NCBI RefSeq assembly: GCF_029633865.1
Contig: NC_079220.1
Coordinates: 56,078,477 to 56,142,476, forward strand
Length of the DNA stretch: 64,000 bases
DNA from: Lampris incognitus
Lineage: Eukaryota; Chordata; Actinopteri; Lampriformes; Lampridae
Direction of reading: 5' to 3'
Positions 1,986 to 62,852 of the stretch are shown one piece after another. Position 1 is the stretch's first letter. Every line of letters starts with the position of its first letter. The position numbers were made by a program, and so were the translations under genes. The notes under the pieces are model-generated. The model was not told the origin of the DNA. It did not search any database and saw only the letters and a list, made by a program, of their open reading frames with translations.

Positions 1986-2121
1986 AATCACTATTCCATA
2001 AGAAGGTTTTATGAGGAGAAACGTTGTGGATGAAGCATAACTTCCAGGCAAGAAGGGATTGCTGATGAAACTTAGCTAAAGCCACGGGAAGTTTGTTAGG
2101 TGAGTAATTACATGTTAATAT

Positions 2122-2278
2122 TGTAGCGAATTCGGGGGACAACGCAACCACAGGAACTACCGCGGCCGGGAAGCGAACCCGTATCGCCCGCACCGCAGAA
2201 GACATCGCTAACCGCTAGACTAAAGGGTCAGACCCGCGAGCCAGCGGCCAGCGTGTCTTCTTATCCATGCACGTTACA
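2122..2278 (-). mobile_element. 157-bp solo LTR-like element with tRNA-like promoter core
   Basis: On the minus strand it starts TGTAACG and ends CGCTACA. It is flanked by ATAT on both sides (2118-2121 and 2279-2282), and precise removal restores the LINE reading SVLYLTCNYSP. The interior is tRNA-like: an A-box-like TAGTCTAGCGG, a B-box-like GGTTCGCTTCC, and a CGGG/CCCG T-arm stem around it; the D-arm region resembles tRNA-Glu/Asp. TG...CA ends and a 4-bp duplication point to LTR-integrase insertion rather than LINE-driven SINE insertion. A second copy at 58003-58134 has a polypurine tract beside it, supporting the LTR reading. Confidence 0.65.
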
Positions 2279-2726
2279 ATATAAAACAGAGACCACCAAT
2301 TTTATCAAAAATATGATTTGGGATGAAGAACCACAGAGAATCTGGGTTTGCCAGACAATTTTTAGCCAATTAACTTTAAAAGTGTTTACAGTATCAATGA
2401 AATTTAAAACTTCAGGACCTCCCTCCGCTCTACTGTTAGAACGTACTGCCTTTTGAAGTTGGTGAGACTTATTTTTCCAGATGAAGTCAAGGAATAACTT
2501 GCTGATGTCATTAACTGTGGGGTCATTAACAAAAAGGGAAAGGGAAGGATAAACGAAGCGAGGAAGGCCCTCAGCCTTAGATGAAAGGACTCTGCCGTAT
2601 AACGTCAAGTCTCTCTGAAGCCGGAGGTTAAAGACATTCTTGCTTTTCTTAATCCTTCCCTTAAAGTTCAGTTACTGTCTGGCTGCAAGGTTTTTAGCTT
2701 TAGAAATGCCCAAATATTTAACTGTG

Positions 2727-3795: not shown

Positions 3796-4509
3796 GCCGT
3801 CTTTTTACAATCGCTTCCTTTCCGCGATGACTGCGGCGGGGACGAAGCTGGAGTACTGTTCATATTGTAACGAACTTGACCAACTGTTGTCTTGATTCAT
3901 TGCCAGACAATATTAAACGGGACATCAGTCACTGTGGACAGTGACACAAGTGACCAAGAGCTCAGCCCAGCCAGGCAAACTGACCTGCCTCAGCCCATAG
4001 GCAAATCACCACTCTCAGCGCACTACAGGACAGCTAGTGGCAGGTTAGTGAAAGCGCCAAACAGGCTGAACCTATAGAAAAGACTGGATTCTGGGGTACG
4101 GGTTTAGTAAAAGCTGGAAAAGTTGAGAGGGGTCGAAGAAGTTCTGAATCCAAAAAATGTGGTTTTTGAGAGACTTAAACTCAGTGTATAGGTGGTTAGC
4201 CTTCCATTGGAGGTATTCAGGGAATCGGTTATATAAGGGTTAATGTTAACTATAAAAAGGGAGCTGTTGGATGGGACCGTTGGTCTAAGCCCCTCCCCAA
4301 GCGTTGTGTGTGTGAGTGGTACACCCCAGCAGGAAATGGGGATTGAGGTGTTACGTCATATTCACGACAATAAAGCGGTCATGCGTTGTACATACACTGC
4401 GGTCTCCGTTGTGATTATTTACACAAACATACATTTGTCACCTGGACCCAAAGTATCTGCGTGGGTGTGGTTTCTGCTTTGGTGTCGTGACCAGAATATT
4501 GAGGTTACA
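3796..4509 (+). other. Possible 3' end of an LTR element (pol tail plus LTR-like DNA)
   Basis: An open stretch ends at 4077 with a basic tail, TASGRLVKAPNRLNL, resembling C-terminal tails of retroelement polyproteins. Downstream are a TATA-like CTATAAAAAG near 4250 and AATAAA near 4370, the order expected of an LTR. No clear terminal repeat or target duplication was found, so this is a weak call. The right edge abuts a SINE A fragment. Confidence 0.3.
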
Positions 4510-4700
4510 CTACGTCCCCCTGGTAAAACTCCTCACTGTCAGGTGAAAAGAAGCGGCTGGTGACTCCACATGTATGGGAGGAGGCATGTGGTGGTCTGCA
4601 GCCCTCCCCGGATCAGCAGAGGAGTGGGGCAGCGACCGGGACGGCTCAGGAAATAGGGTAATTGGCCAAGTACAAATAGGGAGAAAAGGGGGAAAATCCA
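4510..4700 (+). repeat. SINE family A, 3' part
   Basis: It matches the 3' half of the family A consensus from the CTACGTCCCCCTGG segment to the GGGAGAAAAGGGGG tail. The tRNA-like head is missing, consistent with 5' truncation. Confidence 0.8.
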
Positions 4701-44555: not shown

Positions 44556-47500
44556 TACTGTAGGCCCGCAAGGCACTGGCAGATAGGCAGAAGGATCTGG
44601 AGGTAAAGACCCAACAACTGGAGATCAAACTCAGCAACAAGACAGAGGAGGATATAAAGAAGGCACGGCGGAAATCCACACAAGCAGGTGAGAGGCCCTG
44701 AAGGTCTGGATCAGGGAGTTGGATCAGGGAACTTCTGTTCCCAAGTGCAGATGGATGGTTCAGAACCAACCATTCAGAGCCATTGGGAGCCGGGTCACAA
44801 CTGTGGAGGTTTTCCTCACAATCCAAACACTATTCCAGCTAGCTAAAGTAATGACTAATCACCTGTCTGGTTAAAGGTGTGGTTGGTTGATGAAGCTTGC
44901 TGGTGTGGTTGGTTGGTGTCTAGCTCTTGATGACACTTGGTAAAGAACAATTGACGTAGACCCAAAAAATGAATCTAACTGAATGACCAAAGATTGCCGG
45001 TGGATCTTTGCTTGGCAAAAACACTTCGGCTAAGACCAAAAAGGTTTATTCATTTGCCTTTCTAACCGTGAAAAGGTTAAAAAGTCCCCACAAAAGCCGG
45101 TTCGAATCCCCGTATTACCTCCAGCTTGGTCGGACACAATTACTACAGATACAGTTACTACAGTTACTACAGACACAGTTACTACAGTTACTACAGACAT
45201 AATTACTACAGTTACTACAGACACAGTTACTACAGTTACTACAGACACAGTTACTACAGACACAATTACTACAGACACAATTACTACAGTTACTACAGAC
45301 ACAGTTACTACAGTTACTACAGTTACTACAGACACAGTTACTACAGTTACTACAGACACAATTACTACAGTTACTACAGACACAGTTACTACAGTTACTA
45401 CAGACACAATTACTACAGTTACTACAGACACAGTTACTACAGTTACTACAGACACAATTACTACAGTTACTACAGACACAATTACTACAGTTACTACAGA
45501 CACATTTACTACAGTTACTACAGACACAATTACTACAGTTACTACAGACACAATTACTACAGTTACTACAGACACAGTTACTACAGACACAGTGACTACA
45601 GACACAATTACTACAGTTACTACAGACACAGTTACTACAGTTACTACAGACACAATTACTACAGTTACTACAGACACAGTTACTACAGTTACTACAGACA
45701 CAATTACTACAGTTACTACAGACACAATTACTACAGTTACTACAGACACATTTACTACAGTTACTACAGACACAATTACTACAGTTACTACAGACACAAT
45801 TACTACAGTTACTACAGACACAGTTACTACAGACACAGTGACTACAGACACAATTACTACAGTTACTACAGACACAGTTACTACAGTTACTACAGACACA
45901 ATTACTACAGTTACTACAGACACGATTACTACAGTTACTACAGACACAGTTACTACAGTTACTACAGACACAGTTACTACAGACACAGTTACTACAGACA
46001 CAATTACTACAGTTACTACAGACACAGTTACTACAGTTACTACAGACACAAGTACTACAGTTACTACAGACACAGTTACTACAGTTACTACAGACACAAT
46101 TACTACAATTACTACAGACACAGTTACTACAATTACTAAAGACACAGTTACTACAATTACTACAGACACAGTTACTACAGACACAGTTACCACAATTACT
46201 ACAGACACAGTTACTACAATTACTACAGACACAGTTACTACAGTTACTACAGACACAATTACTACAATTACTACAGACACAGTTACTACAGTTACTACAG
46301 ACACAGTTACTACAGACACAGTTACTACAATTACTACAGACACAGTTACTACAATTACTACAGACACAGTTACTACAGTTACTACAGACACAATTACTAC
46401 AATTACTACAGACACAGTTACTACAGTTACTACAGACACAGTTACTACAATTACTACAGACACAGTTACTACAGTTACTACAGACACAGTTACTACAATT
46501 ACTACAGACACAGTTACTACAATTACTACAGACACAGTTACTACAGTTACTACAGACACAATTACTACAATTACTACAGACACAGTTACTACAGTTACTA
46601 CAGACACAGTTACTACAATTACTACAGACACAATTACTACAATTACTACAGACACAATTACTACAGACACAATTACTACAATTACTACAGACACAATTAC
46701 TACAATTACTACAGACACAGTTGCTACAGTTACTGCAGACACAGTTACTACAGACACAGTTACTACAATTACTACAGACACAGTTAGTACAGTTACCACA
46801 GACACAATTACTACAGTTACTACAGACACAGTTACTACAGTTACTACAGACACAGTTACTACAATTACTACAGACACAATTACTACAATTACTACAGACA
46901 CAATTACTACAATTACTACAGACACAGTTGCTACAGTTACTACAGACACAATTACTACAATTACTACAGACACAGTTACTACAATTACTACAGACACAGT
47001 TACTACAATTACTACAGACACAGTTACTACAATTACTGCAGACACAGTTACTACAGTTACTACAGACACAATTACTACAATTACTACAGACACAGTTACT
47101 ACAGTTACTACAGACACAGTTACTACAGACACAGTTACTACAATTACTACAGACACAGTTACTACAATTACTACAGACACAGTTACTACAGTTACTACAG
47201 ACACAATTACTACAATTACTACAGACACAGTTACTACAGTTACTACAGACACAGTTACTACAATTACTACAGACACAGTTACTACAGTTACTACAGACAC
47301 AATTACTACAGTTACTACAGACACAGTTACTACAGACACAGTTACTACAATTACTACAGACACAGTTGCTACAGTTACTGCAGACACAGTTACTACAGAC
47401 ACAGTTACTACAGTTACTACAGACACAGTTACTACAGACACAGTTACTACAGACAGAATTACTACAATTACTACAGACACAATTGGTCGTGTCTGCGGGT

Positions 47501-50500
47501 GGGAAACCGGATGTGGGTATGTGTCCTGGTCGCTGCACTAGCGCCTCCTCTGGTCGGTTGGGGTGTCTATTCGGGGGGGGGACTGGGGGGAATAGTGTGA
47601 TCCTCCCACATGCTACGTCCCCCTGGTGAGGCATGTGGTAGTCTGCAGCCCTCCTGGATCAGCAGAGGGGGTGGAGCAGAGACCGGGACGGCTCGGAGGA
47701 GTGGAGTAATTGGCCATTAGGGGGAAAAAAAAGGGGGGGAGGAGTTCCCACTACAGGTGTATATAATAAGAGTGGGTGTTACACACTAAAGCACATAACT
47801 TCTCTCACTTTTTCAGCTTGGTTAATTGAACCGCTCCTGGCAATTTACCGCCCTTACCAGTGTAGCCCTGTAGTTTTTAGCAGCCTGCTTCTATTTAGCA
47901 TGAAGTGTTTTTAGACACCTTGGGCTCAATTCTACATACCAGTGCTGCTTTATGCCGTGGTCATGCTAATGCTAAGGCTAATACTAATAATAAAGCTAAT
48001 ACAAATACTAATTCTAATACTAAAACTAATAATAATTGGCAGCACGGTGGCGCAGTGGTTAGCGCAGTCGCCTCACAGCAAGAAGGTCCTGGGTTCGAGT
48101 CCCGGGGTAGTCCAACCTTGGGGGTCGTCCCGGGTCGTCCTCTGTGTGGAGTTTGCATGTTCTCCCCGTGTCTGTGTGGGTTTCCTCCCACAGTCCAAAG
48201 ACATGTAGGTCAGGTGAATCAGCCGCACTAAACTGTCACTGTGAATGTGTGTGTGTGTGTGTGTGTGGGTCCTGTGTGATGGTCTGGTGGCCTGTCCAGG
48301 GTGTCTCCCCGCCTGTCGCCCAATGACTGCTTGGATAGGCTCCAGCATCCCCACAACCCTGAGAGCAGAATAAGCGGTTCAGATAATGGATGGATGGATG
48401 GATGGATTAGGTCCATATCGCCCAACCCTACCATGTGAACTTTATCACATACATATAGACAATAGTCAGAAAGGCATGACTCCAGAGGGAAATATTAATG
48501 AATAATATAACTAATATTTGAAATAATAATGCATGAGAAAAAAATCTGCATGGATTTATTGTATCCGCTTACTGATGTCTGCTTTATGTGAAAGCGATGC
48601 TTTCTCAACACCTGAGGCAGAGTACAGCTCTCAGGCATATTTCACAGCGTACATCTGTATGGAAGTTAAATGTGTTGATTGCACAGCCTGAGGTTTTAAT
48701 AAGCAGGTTCGCAAGTTTGATCTTTATTTGGTTTAGCATCTCACTCATCTGCTGAATGTGCCATCCCTCCATAATAAACTGTGCTGAAATGCGATTGGAT
48801 CTCAAGGTGGAGCCTAGGGACTGACGGGGTCCTATTCTCCGCTTCCGGTGGGGGAAGATGGTGGCACGAATCCACGTTTGCAGAGGCCTCACCCAGTACC
48901 GTTCATGCAGTGTCTTTGTCCACGTCTGCGTCTCAGTTTGTCTTGGTTTGATTGCTGGGAGAGCTGGCGCTGGGTCGGCAGGGAGAGCCTGGTCTGCTGC
49001 GTCCTGTGGGTCCAGGGACCACGGCCCCGACCGGAGCTGCGCCTGAAGAGGTAACGCCGAGGGCGGTCTGACAGGACGCGGAAGCGGGGCAGGCTAAGCT
49101 AACTGCTAGCCCATGCAGACCGGCAGTTCCAGTAACACCGAGGGCGGTCTGGCGGTGGCCTTGCCTAGCCTCGACGGTGTTTTTAGTGTTGTCGTGTGGA
49201 GTGCGGGGAGGTGTTTCGAAGGTGTCTGGCTGGGAGAGCTGGTATTGAATCGGCTGGGAGAGCTTGGTCTGCTGCGTCCTGTGGGCCCAAGGACCACGGC
49301 CCTGCCTGGAGTTACGCCCAAAGAGAAAACACCGAGGGTGGTCTGACAGGATGCCGTAGCGGGGCAGGCTAAGCTAACTGCTAGCCCATGCAGACCGGCA
49401 GTTCCGACAGTCATCCTGGCTGGCGTTCGTTCCCCTGGACAGTGTTTTTTTTTTTAGTTTGGGTGTTAGTTTGGATATATGTGTTAGTTTGGATGCGTTC
49501 TTGTAGTTTTTGGATGTGTTTTTGTCTTTGTGTTGTACTGCTGTGGGCTGCGGGAAACAGTATTTTGTTTCATTTCGTGTGCGCAAGTGCATGAAATGAA
49601 ACGACAAATAAAGTGTTCCTGATTCCTATAGGGGGTCAAGGGGTCCCCGGCAAGAGGGAGAGTTTAATATCACTTTAATGCTCTAGAAATAATCCCAAAT
49701 TAGAGAACACCTAAAGACAGTTTTTATTCGCAGGTTTCCCTTTCGTCACCACAGTCTCCCCACATACGCGACAGATAGTCTACAGACCACACCAGTGTCC
49801 CTGTACTGGAGTATTAAGTCCACTTTCTGTAAGTCCAAAAAGTTGGAGACATCTAAATTCAAATGGCACGTACCAGTCGAGACAGAACAAACCAAGGTAG
49901 GGATGCATTTGGAACGCCCCCTACTGATCATTAAAGATCCCGTGCACATGTGCTCCAGTCGATAATACCAACACCGAATTCCTTGAAATGCCAGCCAACT
50001 GTTCTAAAATGTAGAGGATCCGATTATTTTCTTTGTGCCATGATGAATGTTGGTCAACGGCTCATCATTCAGTGCTTTCAAAAATGCAACAAAAAAAATA
50101 AAATATGTATATGTTCTTGTCAAAACCTATTGGACTGGCCGCTGTTGATCCCTCAGCTGTTTCTGTCTGTGTTCTCCAGGAGATGACCTGATGCGCTGTG
50201 TGGATCTGTATAACCAAACCCAGTCCAAGTGGTTTGAGGAAATGGTCACTACGAGCATGGTAAACCACCTTCCCTTTGAGACAAAAACCGGCGTTGATAT
50301 TTTGTAGTATTTCCATGTGCTTCCTGTATCAACCGTCAGTGTCTCTCAACCATTCAGGAGCTGGAGAAACTGGAAGTTGACCGTATTGAGTGGATTCAAC
50401 AGCATCTTCGCCAGTACACAACCCTGAGGCACGAAACTGACATGTTCAACCAAAGTGTGAGTTCTGTGTCCCCTTTTCTCTCCATCCCTTTTGAGTCAGA

Positions 50501-58002: not shown

Positions 58003-58134
58003 TGTAGTGGATTCGGAGGGTAGCCGCAACACGAACCCGTGTCACCCGCACCATGGGCGACTACGTTAACCAGTCAACTAAAGGGTCCGACCCGTTAGCT
58101 AAGGGCCCACGAGTCTTCATACGTGATCGTTACA
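58003..58134 (-). repeat. LTR with tRNA-like core, second copy
   Basis: The minus strand starts TGTAACG and ends near CCACTACA. It shares with 2122-2278 the segments GACCCTTTAGT, a GTTAACGTAG-type A-box region, GTGCGGG and the B-box-like GGGTTCGTGTTGC. On the minus strand the bases just before it are GGCGGGGGGTAG, a polypurine tract, as at the 3' LTR of a Ty3/gypsy element. No target duplication is seen, as expected if this is one LTR of a truncated element. Confidence 0.6.
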
Positions 58135-58430
58135 CTACCCCCCGCCTTACGGGAACGTGCTTCAGCATATCAGCTCCCTCACGCCTCGTACATAACCGTG
58201 GAAGTCAAATTCCTCGTATGTGCAAATGTACTGAGCACAGCGACACATCCAGCAGTGCCACAGCATGCAGGCGACGGGCCTGTACTGGCCATCCATCGAT
58301 AAGCCAGCTCTGTTATGGAAGGCATCTCCCTTATGTGAACGTTGGTGGTAGGGAATGTTTTTCGATGAAGACCTTGCTTGCTAAAACAGTGTTCTCCATG
58401 AATAAAAAAAAAGACCATGATGCTTAATTC
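58135..58430 (-). other. Polypurine tract and possible internal end of the LTR element
   Basis: 58135-58146 reads as a purine-rich tract on the minus strand next to the LTR start. Beyond it a minus-strand open stretch (58418-58179) contains WMASTGPSPACCG; its identity is not known. Confidence 0.35.
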
Positions 58431-59185: not shown

Positions 59186-59304
59186 CTAGTGTCTTTTCTC
59201 CTTGAGCTTATCCTTGATTTTCTGAGGCTCGTCATATTGAATCAGACGAAGGATGTCCTTGTTGTCCATCACCCCCTGAATGAATTCCCCCTCGGAGATT
59301 TTAT
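59186..59304 (-). CDS. rcvrn: recoverin exon 3
   Basis: The acceptor is GTCGACTCGCAG on the minus strand. It completes an Asp codon and encodes KISEGEFIQGVMDNKDILRL then IQYDEPQKIKDKLKEKRH, with TAG at 59188-59186. Confidence 0.95.
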
Positions 59305-62300
59305 CTGCGAGTCGACAGAAAGAAAAACAGAATGACGGGTTTACTTTCTGGCGCGCTAACAGCCAGGTCTAGACTTGCAGGTGGACTACTCACACTGCAC
59401 ATGAGAAGTCACACATAGCCATGCTGAGTTATGGCGTTATCACCGTTAGAGGGGACTGTCAATAATAATTACCGTTTTCCTTCTTTCCAAAGAAGTCCCA
59501 TATTTTCTCTGCCCTCTTCTCGGGTGTGTTCTCGTCCTCGGGCAGGTTCTTCTGGTCTTCCGTAGGGATCATGTTGAAAATGGACTGCACAAGAGCCATG
59601 ATCAGATAATGTCCGCATCACATTATGAACAATCCCTCACACTAGCAGCCTGAGGGACATACAGCCACTCCTCCCTTCACTAGACACATTTCGCTACCTC
59701 CCTGTAGAGTGGGCCATGCAAAGGTATTCCAGATGCACATTAACCTACCCGGGTTAAGGGTTTTATTTTTGTAATGCGTGATGTACTTGCAAGGGTTTAG
59801 CAAAGCCGTGTTAGCAATGTACCACTTTCTGTGCTGTGCTGAAAACAGACTGGACCGAGTGTTCTGATACCTCGTGATTCCGGGGTGTCCAAACTGTCAT
59901 ACAAGTTTAGCAGCTAACCGAATGGTTGCCTAAAGTCGCTTATCATGAAAGAGGGGGTGCCACAATAAATAAGGTAGTGTCTAATCTGCTCAAGTTGAAA
60001 GTTTTGGTAAGGGTTTACGTTAACTACATTACACAGCTACAGACAGTCTGTAGATGTCCCGTAACTGATGCGGTGGGAGTCATAAAGATGTTGTTCATAT
60101 GGGATGATGCCACCTCGCAGGCCGATAATTCTCGTGTTGAGTTAAAGGGTTTTTTTAGGGAGCTGATCCTTATCCGATGTGAGGGTCTAAGGACAGGATG
60201 TTGTGTTGCTGGAAAGCCCCCTGTGATATTGGGCTGTACAGATAACATGGACTTGACTTGACTTTGGTGGAGGCAAGAAACCAGCCAGTAGGCCTAACAC
60301 AAGAGTCACCAGCCTGCACAGTGGAATGACTGATAACGCCACGACAGCGCCACCATGCTCTGAAACCATTATTTCCAGCTGCTTGTGCCACTCATGTGCC
60401 AGCACGCCGTGATGAATGCCCACGCAGCCAATAGGCAGCCAGCCAGGCACGGAAGGCAAAATGGAGGAAAGGGTACTGTTGTGTCAGAATTCTCTGAATT
60501 ATGCAACACAAGTCTGCAGTTGTCTGCAGACCTCAGGCTGGGACGTGTTTCCAACTAAGTCGGCATCTCAGGTGTGTTTGAACAGTCAGGTAGCTTGTAG
60601 GTAGCTAACGCGTGTACCCTATATGATACACATAGCTTAGGTTTGTTATATGGTTTACAGCGTTCACCCTCAATAGCTCTACAAGAACTACTGAAGTTTC
60701 TTAGTTGAGGATTGGTGTAGTTTTTTTTTTTGGCAACAATAAAATGACCGAGTGTCCCACTAAGAAGTTTTGAAAAGTCTGCCTGTTTGGCTCTGACCTC
60801 CACGCTGACTCAGCGGCGAGTGCAGCTCACATCAGACTGGGTCTGCAAGCAGCTTATGACTCATACTGGATCAGTTATGACTCAGTTATGACCCATACTG
60901 GATCAGTTATGACTCATACTGGATCAGTTATGACTCAGTTATGACCCATACTGGATCAGTTATGACCCATAGTGGATCAGTTATGACTCAGTTATGACCC
61001 ATACTGGATCAGTTATGACCCATACTAGATCAGTTATGACTCATACTGGATCAGTTATGACCCATACTAGATCAGTTATGACTCATACTGGATCAGTTAT
61101 GACCCATAGTGGATCAGTTATGACTCAGACTGGATCAGTTATGACTCAGTTATGACCCATAGTGGATCAGTTATAACTCAGACTGGATCAGTTATGACTC
61201 AGTTATGACCCATACTGGATCAGTTATGACCCATACTGGATCAGTTACGACTCAGTTATGACCCATACTGGATCAGTTATGACCCATAGTGGATCAGTTA
61301 TGACTCAGTTATGACCCATACTGGATCAGTTATGACCCATACTAGATCAGTTATGACCCATAGTGGATCAGTTATGACTCAGACTGGATCAGTTATGACT
61401 CAGTTATGACCCATACTGGATCAGTTATGACTCATACTGGATCAGTTATGACTCAGTTATGACCCATACTGGATCAGTTATGACTCATACTGGACCAGTT
61501 ACGACTCAGTTATGACCCATACTGGATCAGTTATGACTCAGTTATGACCCATACTGGATCAGTTATGACTCATACTGGATCAGTTATGACTCAGTTATGA
61601 CCCATACTGGATCAGTTATGACTCATACTGGATCAGTTATGACTCAGTTATGACCCATACTGGATCAGTTATGACTCATACTGGATCAGTTATGACTCAG
61701 TTATGACCCATACTGGATCAGTAATGACCCATACTAGATCAGTTATGACTCATACTGGATCAGTTATGACTCAGTTATGACCCATACTGGATCAGTAATG
61801 ACCCATACTGGATCAGTTATCACATATCTCCAGACTGTCCACACTTGAAACCAAATTAGAATTTGTGTTCAGATTATTTTCATTGCAGTCAGGTTTCTTA
61901 CCATTTTAGCAGCTAAAATCACTCTGGGTTTACCTCGGGTGCAAAAGATTTGCAATCTAAATTTAGATTAAAGAATGAAATGTTACTTAGAAATAAATTA
62001 TACTGTTTATGTACAATAATACACAACGCAAAGTCAGTCTGTCAACCCCTGATGGCTGAATCGAGTGGTTACCAAGAAAAGACGGGTAGAAAATGTGCCT
62101 TGTCCTGTAATGTAGTTCATGCAGTAAATGGTTGCGAAGTTCTGCTGTAGTTCGCATGTTAACACATTCAGCTTGTAACGATATCAACCTGCACTTTACT
62201 GCGGTCCCCCTCACTATGTGACCTGCATGTATTGGACATTTAGCATGTTAATTGACAATTATAAGTGATCAGTACCTTAACAATTTCTTGGATTTCGTTT

Positions 62301-62656
62301 TTGCTGATGGTTCCGTTCCCGTCCACGTCGTAGAGAGCGAAGGCCCACTCCAGCTTCTGCAGCGTCTTGCCGCCGGAGGTCAGGTGCAAAGCCACGATGT
62401 ACTCTTTAAAGTCTAAAGTGCCGTCTGCGTTGGTGTCGAAACTCCTGAACACGTGGCGCGCATACGCTGTGGGGTCTGCATCTGGGAAGAAGCTGGCATA
62501 GATGCCCTCAAACTGCTCCTTGCTGATTTTGCCACTGGGGCACTCCTTGAGAAAGGACTGGTACCAGGTGCAGAGCTCAGTCTCCGAGTATTTGGTGTTG
62601 GACTTCAGATCCTCCAGAAGCTCCTTTGACAGCGCTCCACTTTTACTATTTCCCAT
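59186..62656 (-). CDS. rcvrn: Recoverin, complete three-exon gene
   Basis: Recoverin is a myristoylated neuronal calcium sensor that inhibits rhodopsin kinase in photoreceptors. Exons on the minus strand are 62656-62276, 59584-59473 and 59304-59186 (381 + 112 + 119 nt), giving 203 residues plus stop; mammalian recoverin is about 200. MGNSKSGALSKE carries the Gly2 myristoylation signal. Cys39 is present in ECPSGK, the inactive first EF hand. EF2 (D74-E85, DTNADGTLDFKE) and EF3 (D110-E121, DVDGNGTISKNE) are canonical calcium loops. EF4 is degenerate (GKKEND...). The C-terminus RLIQYDEPQKIKDKLKEKRH resembles fish recoverins. It is convergent with gas7. Confidence 0.96.
59473..59584 (-). CDS. rcvrn: recoverin exon 2
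   Basis: The acceptor ends GTGCAG and the donor is GTAATT. It encodes SIFNMIPTEDQKNLPEDENT and PEKRAEKIWDFFGKKEN, ending in phase 1. Confidence 0.95.
60135..60265 (-). repeat. Repeat family E fragment
   Basis: The reverse complement matches 8284-8410: the CAAGTCAAGTCCATGTTATC start, GCCCAATATCACAGGGGGCT and CCTTAGACCCTCACATCGGA. It lies in recoverin intron 1. Confidence 0.6.
60266..60854. other. Recoverin intron 1 DNA
   Basis: No gene or recognised repeat. Confidence 0.5.
60855..61822. repeat. Minisatellite in recoverin intron 1
   Basis: About 970 bp built from a 21-bp module (GGATCAGTTATGACYCATACT) and an 11-bp module (CAGTTATGACT) in varying order. It contains about 25 TGACTCA heptamers by eye. 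Confidence 0.95.
61823..62275. other. Recoverin intron 1 DNA
   Basis: AT-rich, no feature recognised. Confidence 0.5.
62276..62656 (-). CDS. rcvrn: recoverin exon 1
   Basis: It starts with ATG at 62656 and ends in AAG before a GTACTG donor (62275-62270), 127 codons in phase 0. It carries the myristoylation signal, EF1 remnant, EF2 and EF3. The open frame continues 11 codons into the intron (to 62240), which is read-through. Confidence 0.96.
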
Positions 62657-62687
62657 GCTGCCAAGACACTCGGAAACGGTGATAATG

Positions 62688-62690
<3 letters not shown>

Positions 62691-62723
<33 letters not shown>

Positions 62724-62726
62724 CGC
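62691..62726. repeat. TC/CT repeat in recoverin 5' region
   Basis: A TCTCTC run followed by GCTC repeats about 35-70 bases upstream of the start codon, probably in the 5' UTR. Confidence 0.9.
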
Positions 62727-62852
62727 TCGCTCTCTTGTCTTGTTTCTATATTCGCCCCCTAACTCTCTCTGAAGGGTTGGTCAAATCCTCGGCAGCACTT
62801 CGTGGTTGGTCTGTCTCACACTCTCCCTGACAACTCCGCAAAGTGCTCAGTA

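Follow-up and report, generated by a model that had tools for sequence, protein, structure and literature searches.

The 157-bp insertion at positions 2122-2278 of the window (the whole stretch of 64,000 nucleotides that was analysed) is very probably a solo LTR of a Helenus-type TRIM, here labelled 'TRIMp3'; an RNA polymerase III (Pol III)-dependent cycle is proposed for it below. Helenus is the name for TRIMs with tRNA-like LTRs (Kojima 2024, PMC10886601). The full element is a non-coding retrotransposon of ~430 bp, in which two 157-bp LTRs surround an internal part of ~117 bp. LTR pairs, a primer site (PBS), a polypurine tract (PPT), 4-bp target duplications, tandem as well as solo forms, and conserved promoter-like boxes were all observed. 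The original prediction, that of a solo LTR carrying a tRNA-like promoter in its interior, proved to be the best reading, since LTR pairs were found, the duplications are of 4 bp and A tails are lacking in the 16 LTRs with perfect duplications.

The insertion and its target site

The insertion and its borders were assigned as follows:
2122..2278, minus strand: solo LTR of 157 bp, reading TGTAACG...CGCTACA in the sense direction (from the sequence and genomic copies)
2118..2121, no strand: left copy of the target duplication ATAT (read from the sequence)
2279..2282, no strand: right copy of the target duplication ATAT (read from the sequence)

On the plus strand, positions 2118-2282 thus read ATAT, then TGTAGCG...CGTTACA with its TG..CA ends, and then ATAT again. 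The minus strand of the window was taken as the sense strand because of the PPT beside a relative at position 58003, together with the PBS seen in genomic copies. When the empty site was rebuilt by fusing the flanks and dropping one ATAT, a minus-strand frame spanned the junction, with ..NHIFDKIGGLCFIL on one side of it and TCNYSPNKLPVALAKFHQQ.. on the other. This LINE-like frame measures 84 codons from stop to stop, while in the filled site a stop lies at the element border. The borders first proposed, with TG..CA ends, an ATAT duplication and a LINE frame restored by exact excision, were thereby borne out. The host LINE-like sequence is also broken elsewhere, with a longer upstream stretch in another frame. 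We take the interrupted LINE to be L1-like; a Pfam search with two pieces of it gave zero matches.

LTR pairs, primer sites and polypurine tracts in the genome

Copies were sought in the assembly to which the window belongs (1.48 Gb, 537 contigs). The LTR at 2122-2278 gave 879 candidates, and the 40 that were scored showed 97-100% identity, save for one short fragment. For a census of LTRs, a profile of five LTRs was run on 90 loci, resulting in 198 LTR matches, 126 of them near full length with repeats collapsed; four loci that share one segment (L015-L018) were counted once in the tally of paired and solo LTRs. Paired copies, by which an LTR can be told from a SINE, were indeed present: the 90 loci contained 28 LTR-internal-LTR units, typically of 157+117+157 bp. 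Within these units the two LTRs were 78.1-98.7% identical and the internal part ranged from 86 to 121 bp, measuring 116-118 bp in 18 of the 28. At locus L007, three LTRs and two internal parts stand in tandem, with ATAT on both flanks. At L102, L103, L100 and L094 the internal part is shorter (72 bp, measured in L102), with the same PBS start and divergent sequence thereafter.

The internal part opens with T-TGGTGTCAGAAGTGGGAT, which matches a tRNA-Leu 3' end at 18/18 positions; this tRNA-Leu is presumably the primer. A word covering the LTR/PBS junction, CATTGGTGTCAGAAGTGGGATGG, had 3111 exact matches in the genome (1598 + 1513), and its reversed control had none. When A, C or T stood after the 21-base LTR/PBS core, 506 further matches were obtained (control 0). 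A non-random sample of 45 PBS-anchored places, consisting of the first listed places and 12 picked ones, was then inspected. An LTR adjoined the PBS in 40 places, a further LTR lay no more than 260 bp away in 35, and 30 places had both; the respective counts for a 30-place subset were 26, 22 and 18. One or both LTRs were missing at 15 of the 45 places, which counts against the TRIM reading. A PPT such as GGAGGGGGGTAG was found at 25/45 places, the candidate at L092 being a GT repeat that was excluded. The PBS was absent from the 64-kb window at up to 3 mismatches, the PBS word was absent from IMG/VR, and the LTR gave zero matches to phage records.

A second, incomplete element lies further along the window:
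58003..58134, minus strand: 3' LTR from a related subfamily with greater divergence (by alignment to the LTR at 2122-2278)
58135..58187, minus strand: PPT adjoining the LTR, and 53 bp of internal part; the 5' remainder of the element is absent

The copy is truncated and belongs to a related subfamily. Its LTR is 72% identical to that at 2122-2278 over 105 bp, and the 53 bp of internal sequence beyond it show 79-81% identity. In agreement with the claim that this relative abuts a PPT as a 3' LTR should, the LTR borders on the tract on the minus strand, with internal sequence adjoining. In the genome this LTR had 2348 candidates, of which 40 were scored.

A sister family with a second primer site

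A sister Helenus-like family was found at L042, L049, L050, L078, L009, L014, L082, L086 and L090. Its LTR of 135 bp (TGTAAA...TTACA) has the block GGGTCTKACCCTTTAGYC and the boxes in common with the first family. The PBS of the sister family, TGGTGGCAGCGGTGGGAT, matches another tRNA-Leu 3' end at 18/18 positions, and this second tRNA-Leu is presumably its primer. The sister-family word CATTGGTGGCAGCGGTGGGATCCGG had 1680 exact matches in the genome (843 + 837; control 0). Two loci are chimaeric: in L086 a family-2-like LTR stands ahead of the PBS of the first family, and in L097 family 1 sequence continues into family 2.

Conserved promoter-like motifs in the LTR

Within the LTR at 2122-2278, the following motifs were located:
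2212..2222, minus strand: box A-like motif TAGTCTAGCGG, LTR positions 57-67 (box scoring)
2169..2179, minus strand: box B-like motif GGTTCGCTTCC, LTR positions 100-110 (box scoring)
2166..2182, minus strand: T-arm-like hairpin, LTR positions 97-113 (four of five pairs kept)
2225..2235, minus strand: palindrome GGGTC-N-GACCC immediately upstream of box A, LTR positions 44-54 (conserved arms, variable centre)

Boxes were scored against consensus motifs with a maximum of 17, taking the best A/B pair per strand and 2000 dinucleotide shuffles as the control. The minus strand of 2122-2278 reached 16/17, a score equalled by 0/2000 shuffles, while the plus strand reached 12/17, which is at chance level (811/2000). 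A third LTR, from L025, was weaker than that at 2122-2278, its score being reached by 52/2000 shuffles. The LTR at 58003 scored 13/17, which is not significant (207/2000) and counts against the promoter reading. The A and B boxes that had been proposed for the interior of the insertion are thus confirmed at the motif level, without a covariance match: Rfam at the gathering score gave 0 tRNA and no 5S matches in the window, and the 6 matches obtained for five genomic loci at up to E 10 included neither the tRNA family nor 5S. ARAGORN, run with the bacterial code, returned 0 tRNA genes.

The proposed T-arm stem also held, in that four of its five pairs are retained in most of the LTR copies counted (110/119, 110/123, 120/123 and 118/123 of at most 126 LTRs), the fifth being retained in 43/119. 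Across the 126 LTRs, mean column conservation was 0.856 for box A, 0.900 for box B and 0.795 for the other columns, and the 11-mer with the highest conservation begins at LTR position 50, just upstream of and into box A. At the LTR ends conservation is as high as in the boxes, a point against the main reading, and five box A columns differ between subfamilies. The arms of GGGTC-N-GACCC are conserved at the same place across the 126 copies, with a variable centre; this palindrome beside box A looks like a putative dimeric binding site. TTTT occurs in just 4/126 LTRs. The usual internal Pol III terminator is therefore missing, and Pol III would read through into the flank.

Conceivably, the element could be an ordinary TRIM with a Pol II-transcribed LTR, in which the tRNA-like motif survives as a relic or has another role. 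The lack of a cloverleaf in the ARAGORN search and in the Rfam searches of the window and five loci speaks for this, as do the 122/126 LTRs without TTTT and the copy at 58003 without significant boxes. It is opposed by the score of 16/17 that none of the 2000 shuffles reached, by box columns that exceed the mean conservation of the rest, and by the sister family, which retains the box A block while the rest of its LTR differs. On balance, we regard a Pol II-transcribed TRIM as unlikely and favour an LTR with a tRNA-like Pol III promoter.

Target duplications and the absence of A tails

A perfect 4-bp duplication flanked 7/28 pairs and 16/45 unpaired LTRs, i.e., LTRs without a recognised PBS or PPT, and a duplication agreeing at three of four bases was seen for 8/28 and 6/45, respectively. 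The 45 unpaired LTRs include a few that are followed by TTGG and are probably pairs with a damaged partner. ATAT accounted for 9 of the 16 perfect duplications of unpaired LTRs. The 21/28 pairs without a perfect duplication, some of which are links of tandem arrays and others diverged, count against the TRIM reading. Read across copies, the duplications were of 4 bp and neither long nor variable. A-rich tails, which would mark a plain SINE if present in most copies, were not seen: 0/16 LTRs with perfect duplications had an A6 run in the 20 bp beyond them, where the mean A content was 0.33. The 4-bp duplications and the lack of A tails together indicate insertion of the integrase type, not that of a SINE.

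In the case of a plain tRNA-derived SINE, a LINE would have copied a single unit, and a tail and duplications that vary would be expected. The insertion resembles one in its tRNA-like boxes A and B and its short length, and SINE insertion, proposed by Kojima as the origin of the Helenus LTR motif (PMC10886601), is also the likely source of the motif here. This reading is nevertheless very improbable in view of copies that occur in pairs and enclose a fixed internal part with PBS and PPT, the TG..CA ends, the fixed 4-bp duplications and the A6 run found in none of the 16 clean copies. A MITE-type DNA transposon whose short inverted ends would be TGTARCG has practically no likelihood, the near-inverse ends TGTAGCG...CGTTACA notwithstanding, as direct LTR pairs, PBS and PPT, and solo and paired forms fit retrotransposition. 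For the insertion at 2122-2278, the SINE, the MITE and the ordinary Pol II TRIM were considered and rejected on the LTR pairs, PBS and PPT and on the box evidence.

Relationship to Helenus and a proposed cycle

Helenus elements are 311-1263 bp long and occur in fishes, bivalves, wasps and other hosts, the fishes being coelacanth, sterlet, paddlefish, seven carp-like fishes and zebrafish, one catfish, and milkfish (PMC10886601). Animal members have 4-bp target duplications, a PBS and a PPT, vertebrate members use tRNA-His, -Leu or -Lys as primers, and box A starts with TRGCY in most families (PMC10886601). Zebrafish LTR-11_DR, with 5575 LTRs and 2618 internal parts, forms tandem arrays (PMC10886601). 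The original prediction had offered a tRNA-like fish LTR as a novel animal parallel to the plant element Cassandra; this novelty falls away, since such elements have already been published as Helenus (Kojima 2024, PMC10886601). In the open-licence literature, we found no other relevant paper on such elements.

Four traits of Helenus were found in the present elements: two LTRs in a short element, tRNA-like boxes, a 4-bp duplication, and PBS and PPT. They share with Helenus and LTR-11_DR the short LTRs, boxes A and B, PBS, PPT and 4-bp duplications, as well as a probable tRNA-Leu primer, tandem arrays and thousands of LTRs. Box A here starts with TAGTC rather than TRGCY, which counts against the assignment. 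Compared by description only, LTR-11_DR differs from the at least two families found here, which have two putative tRNA-Leu-type primer sites. Cassandra is likewise a TRIM whose LTR contains a promoter of the Pol III type, but carries 5S rRNA sequence including terminators (PMC10886601), whereas the motif here is tRNA-like and gave no 5S match in the window or, at up to E 10, in five loci. Among animal TRIMs, Ajax of nemerteans also has a small-RNA promoter in its LTR; it is 5S-derived with 5-bp duplications (PMC10886601), in contrast to the tRNA-like motif and 4-bp duplications described here.

From these data we infer a cycle in which Pol III would bind boxes A and B of the 5' LTR and start transcription near LTR position 50. 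The RNA would be processed by the proteins of an autonomous LTR element, possibly Gypsy-like, as Kojima has argued for animal Helenus (PMC10886601). Among 15 places read out of the 506 further core matches, no non-Helenus element with the same PBS was seen; all looked Helenus-like by eye, with no helper. First-strand DNA would be primed at TGGTGTCAGAAGTGGGAT by the tRNA-Leu 3' end and the second strand by the PPT, upon which the integrase of the helper would insert the DNA, producing the 4-bp duplication, often ATAT. Later recombination between both LTRs would have left the solo LTR at 2122-2278. Copying of read-through RNA beyond the LTR would presumably not be required, since the first strand would move to R in the 3' LTR.

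Set against Helenus by description only, the element probably represents an undescribed family or subfamily. We suggest, tentatively and with considerable doubt, that two related Helenus families share a Pol III promoter core, use two tRNA-Leu primer sites and have LTRs nearly without TTTT, so that they would be terminator-free Pol III-transcribed elements whose flank RNA is lost at first-strand transfer, in a host whose fish group is possibly absent from the Helenus list. Possibly new points are that two families differ in their putative tRNA-Leu primer site, that their LTRs have hardly any TTTT and that copies are abundant. These abundant families join a group that was named only in 2024 and in which Pol III transcription was inferred but, according to the paper itself, unproven (PMC10886601). 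Many copies are young, with LTR pairs up to 98.7% identical, and thousands of sites with two primer types provide a good setting in which to address Pol III use, the helper and the need for a terminator. Caution is also warranted in such genomes, where tRNA-like repeats are element ends, not tRNA genes.

Other features of the window

At positions 1-1524 a long LTR retrotransposon is present with its 3' end, comprising integrase-like sequence (by eye) and a TGTGG..CCACA LTR at ~1359-1524. An LTR-like sequence at 3866-4512, with uncertain borders, begins with TGTAACG and has TATA-like and AATAAA motifs. Positions 45081-47600 form a 2.5-kb low-complexity tandem array in which several frames are open. 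On the minus strand at 59200-62758, the translation, read by eye, revealed exons resembling recoverin, a retinal calcium sensor.
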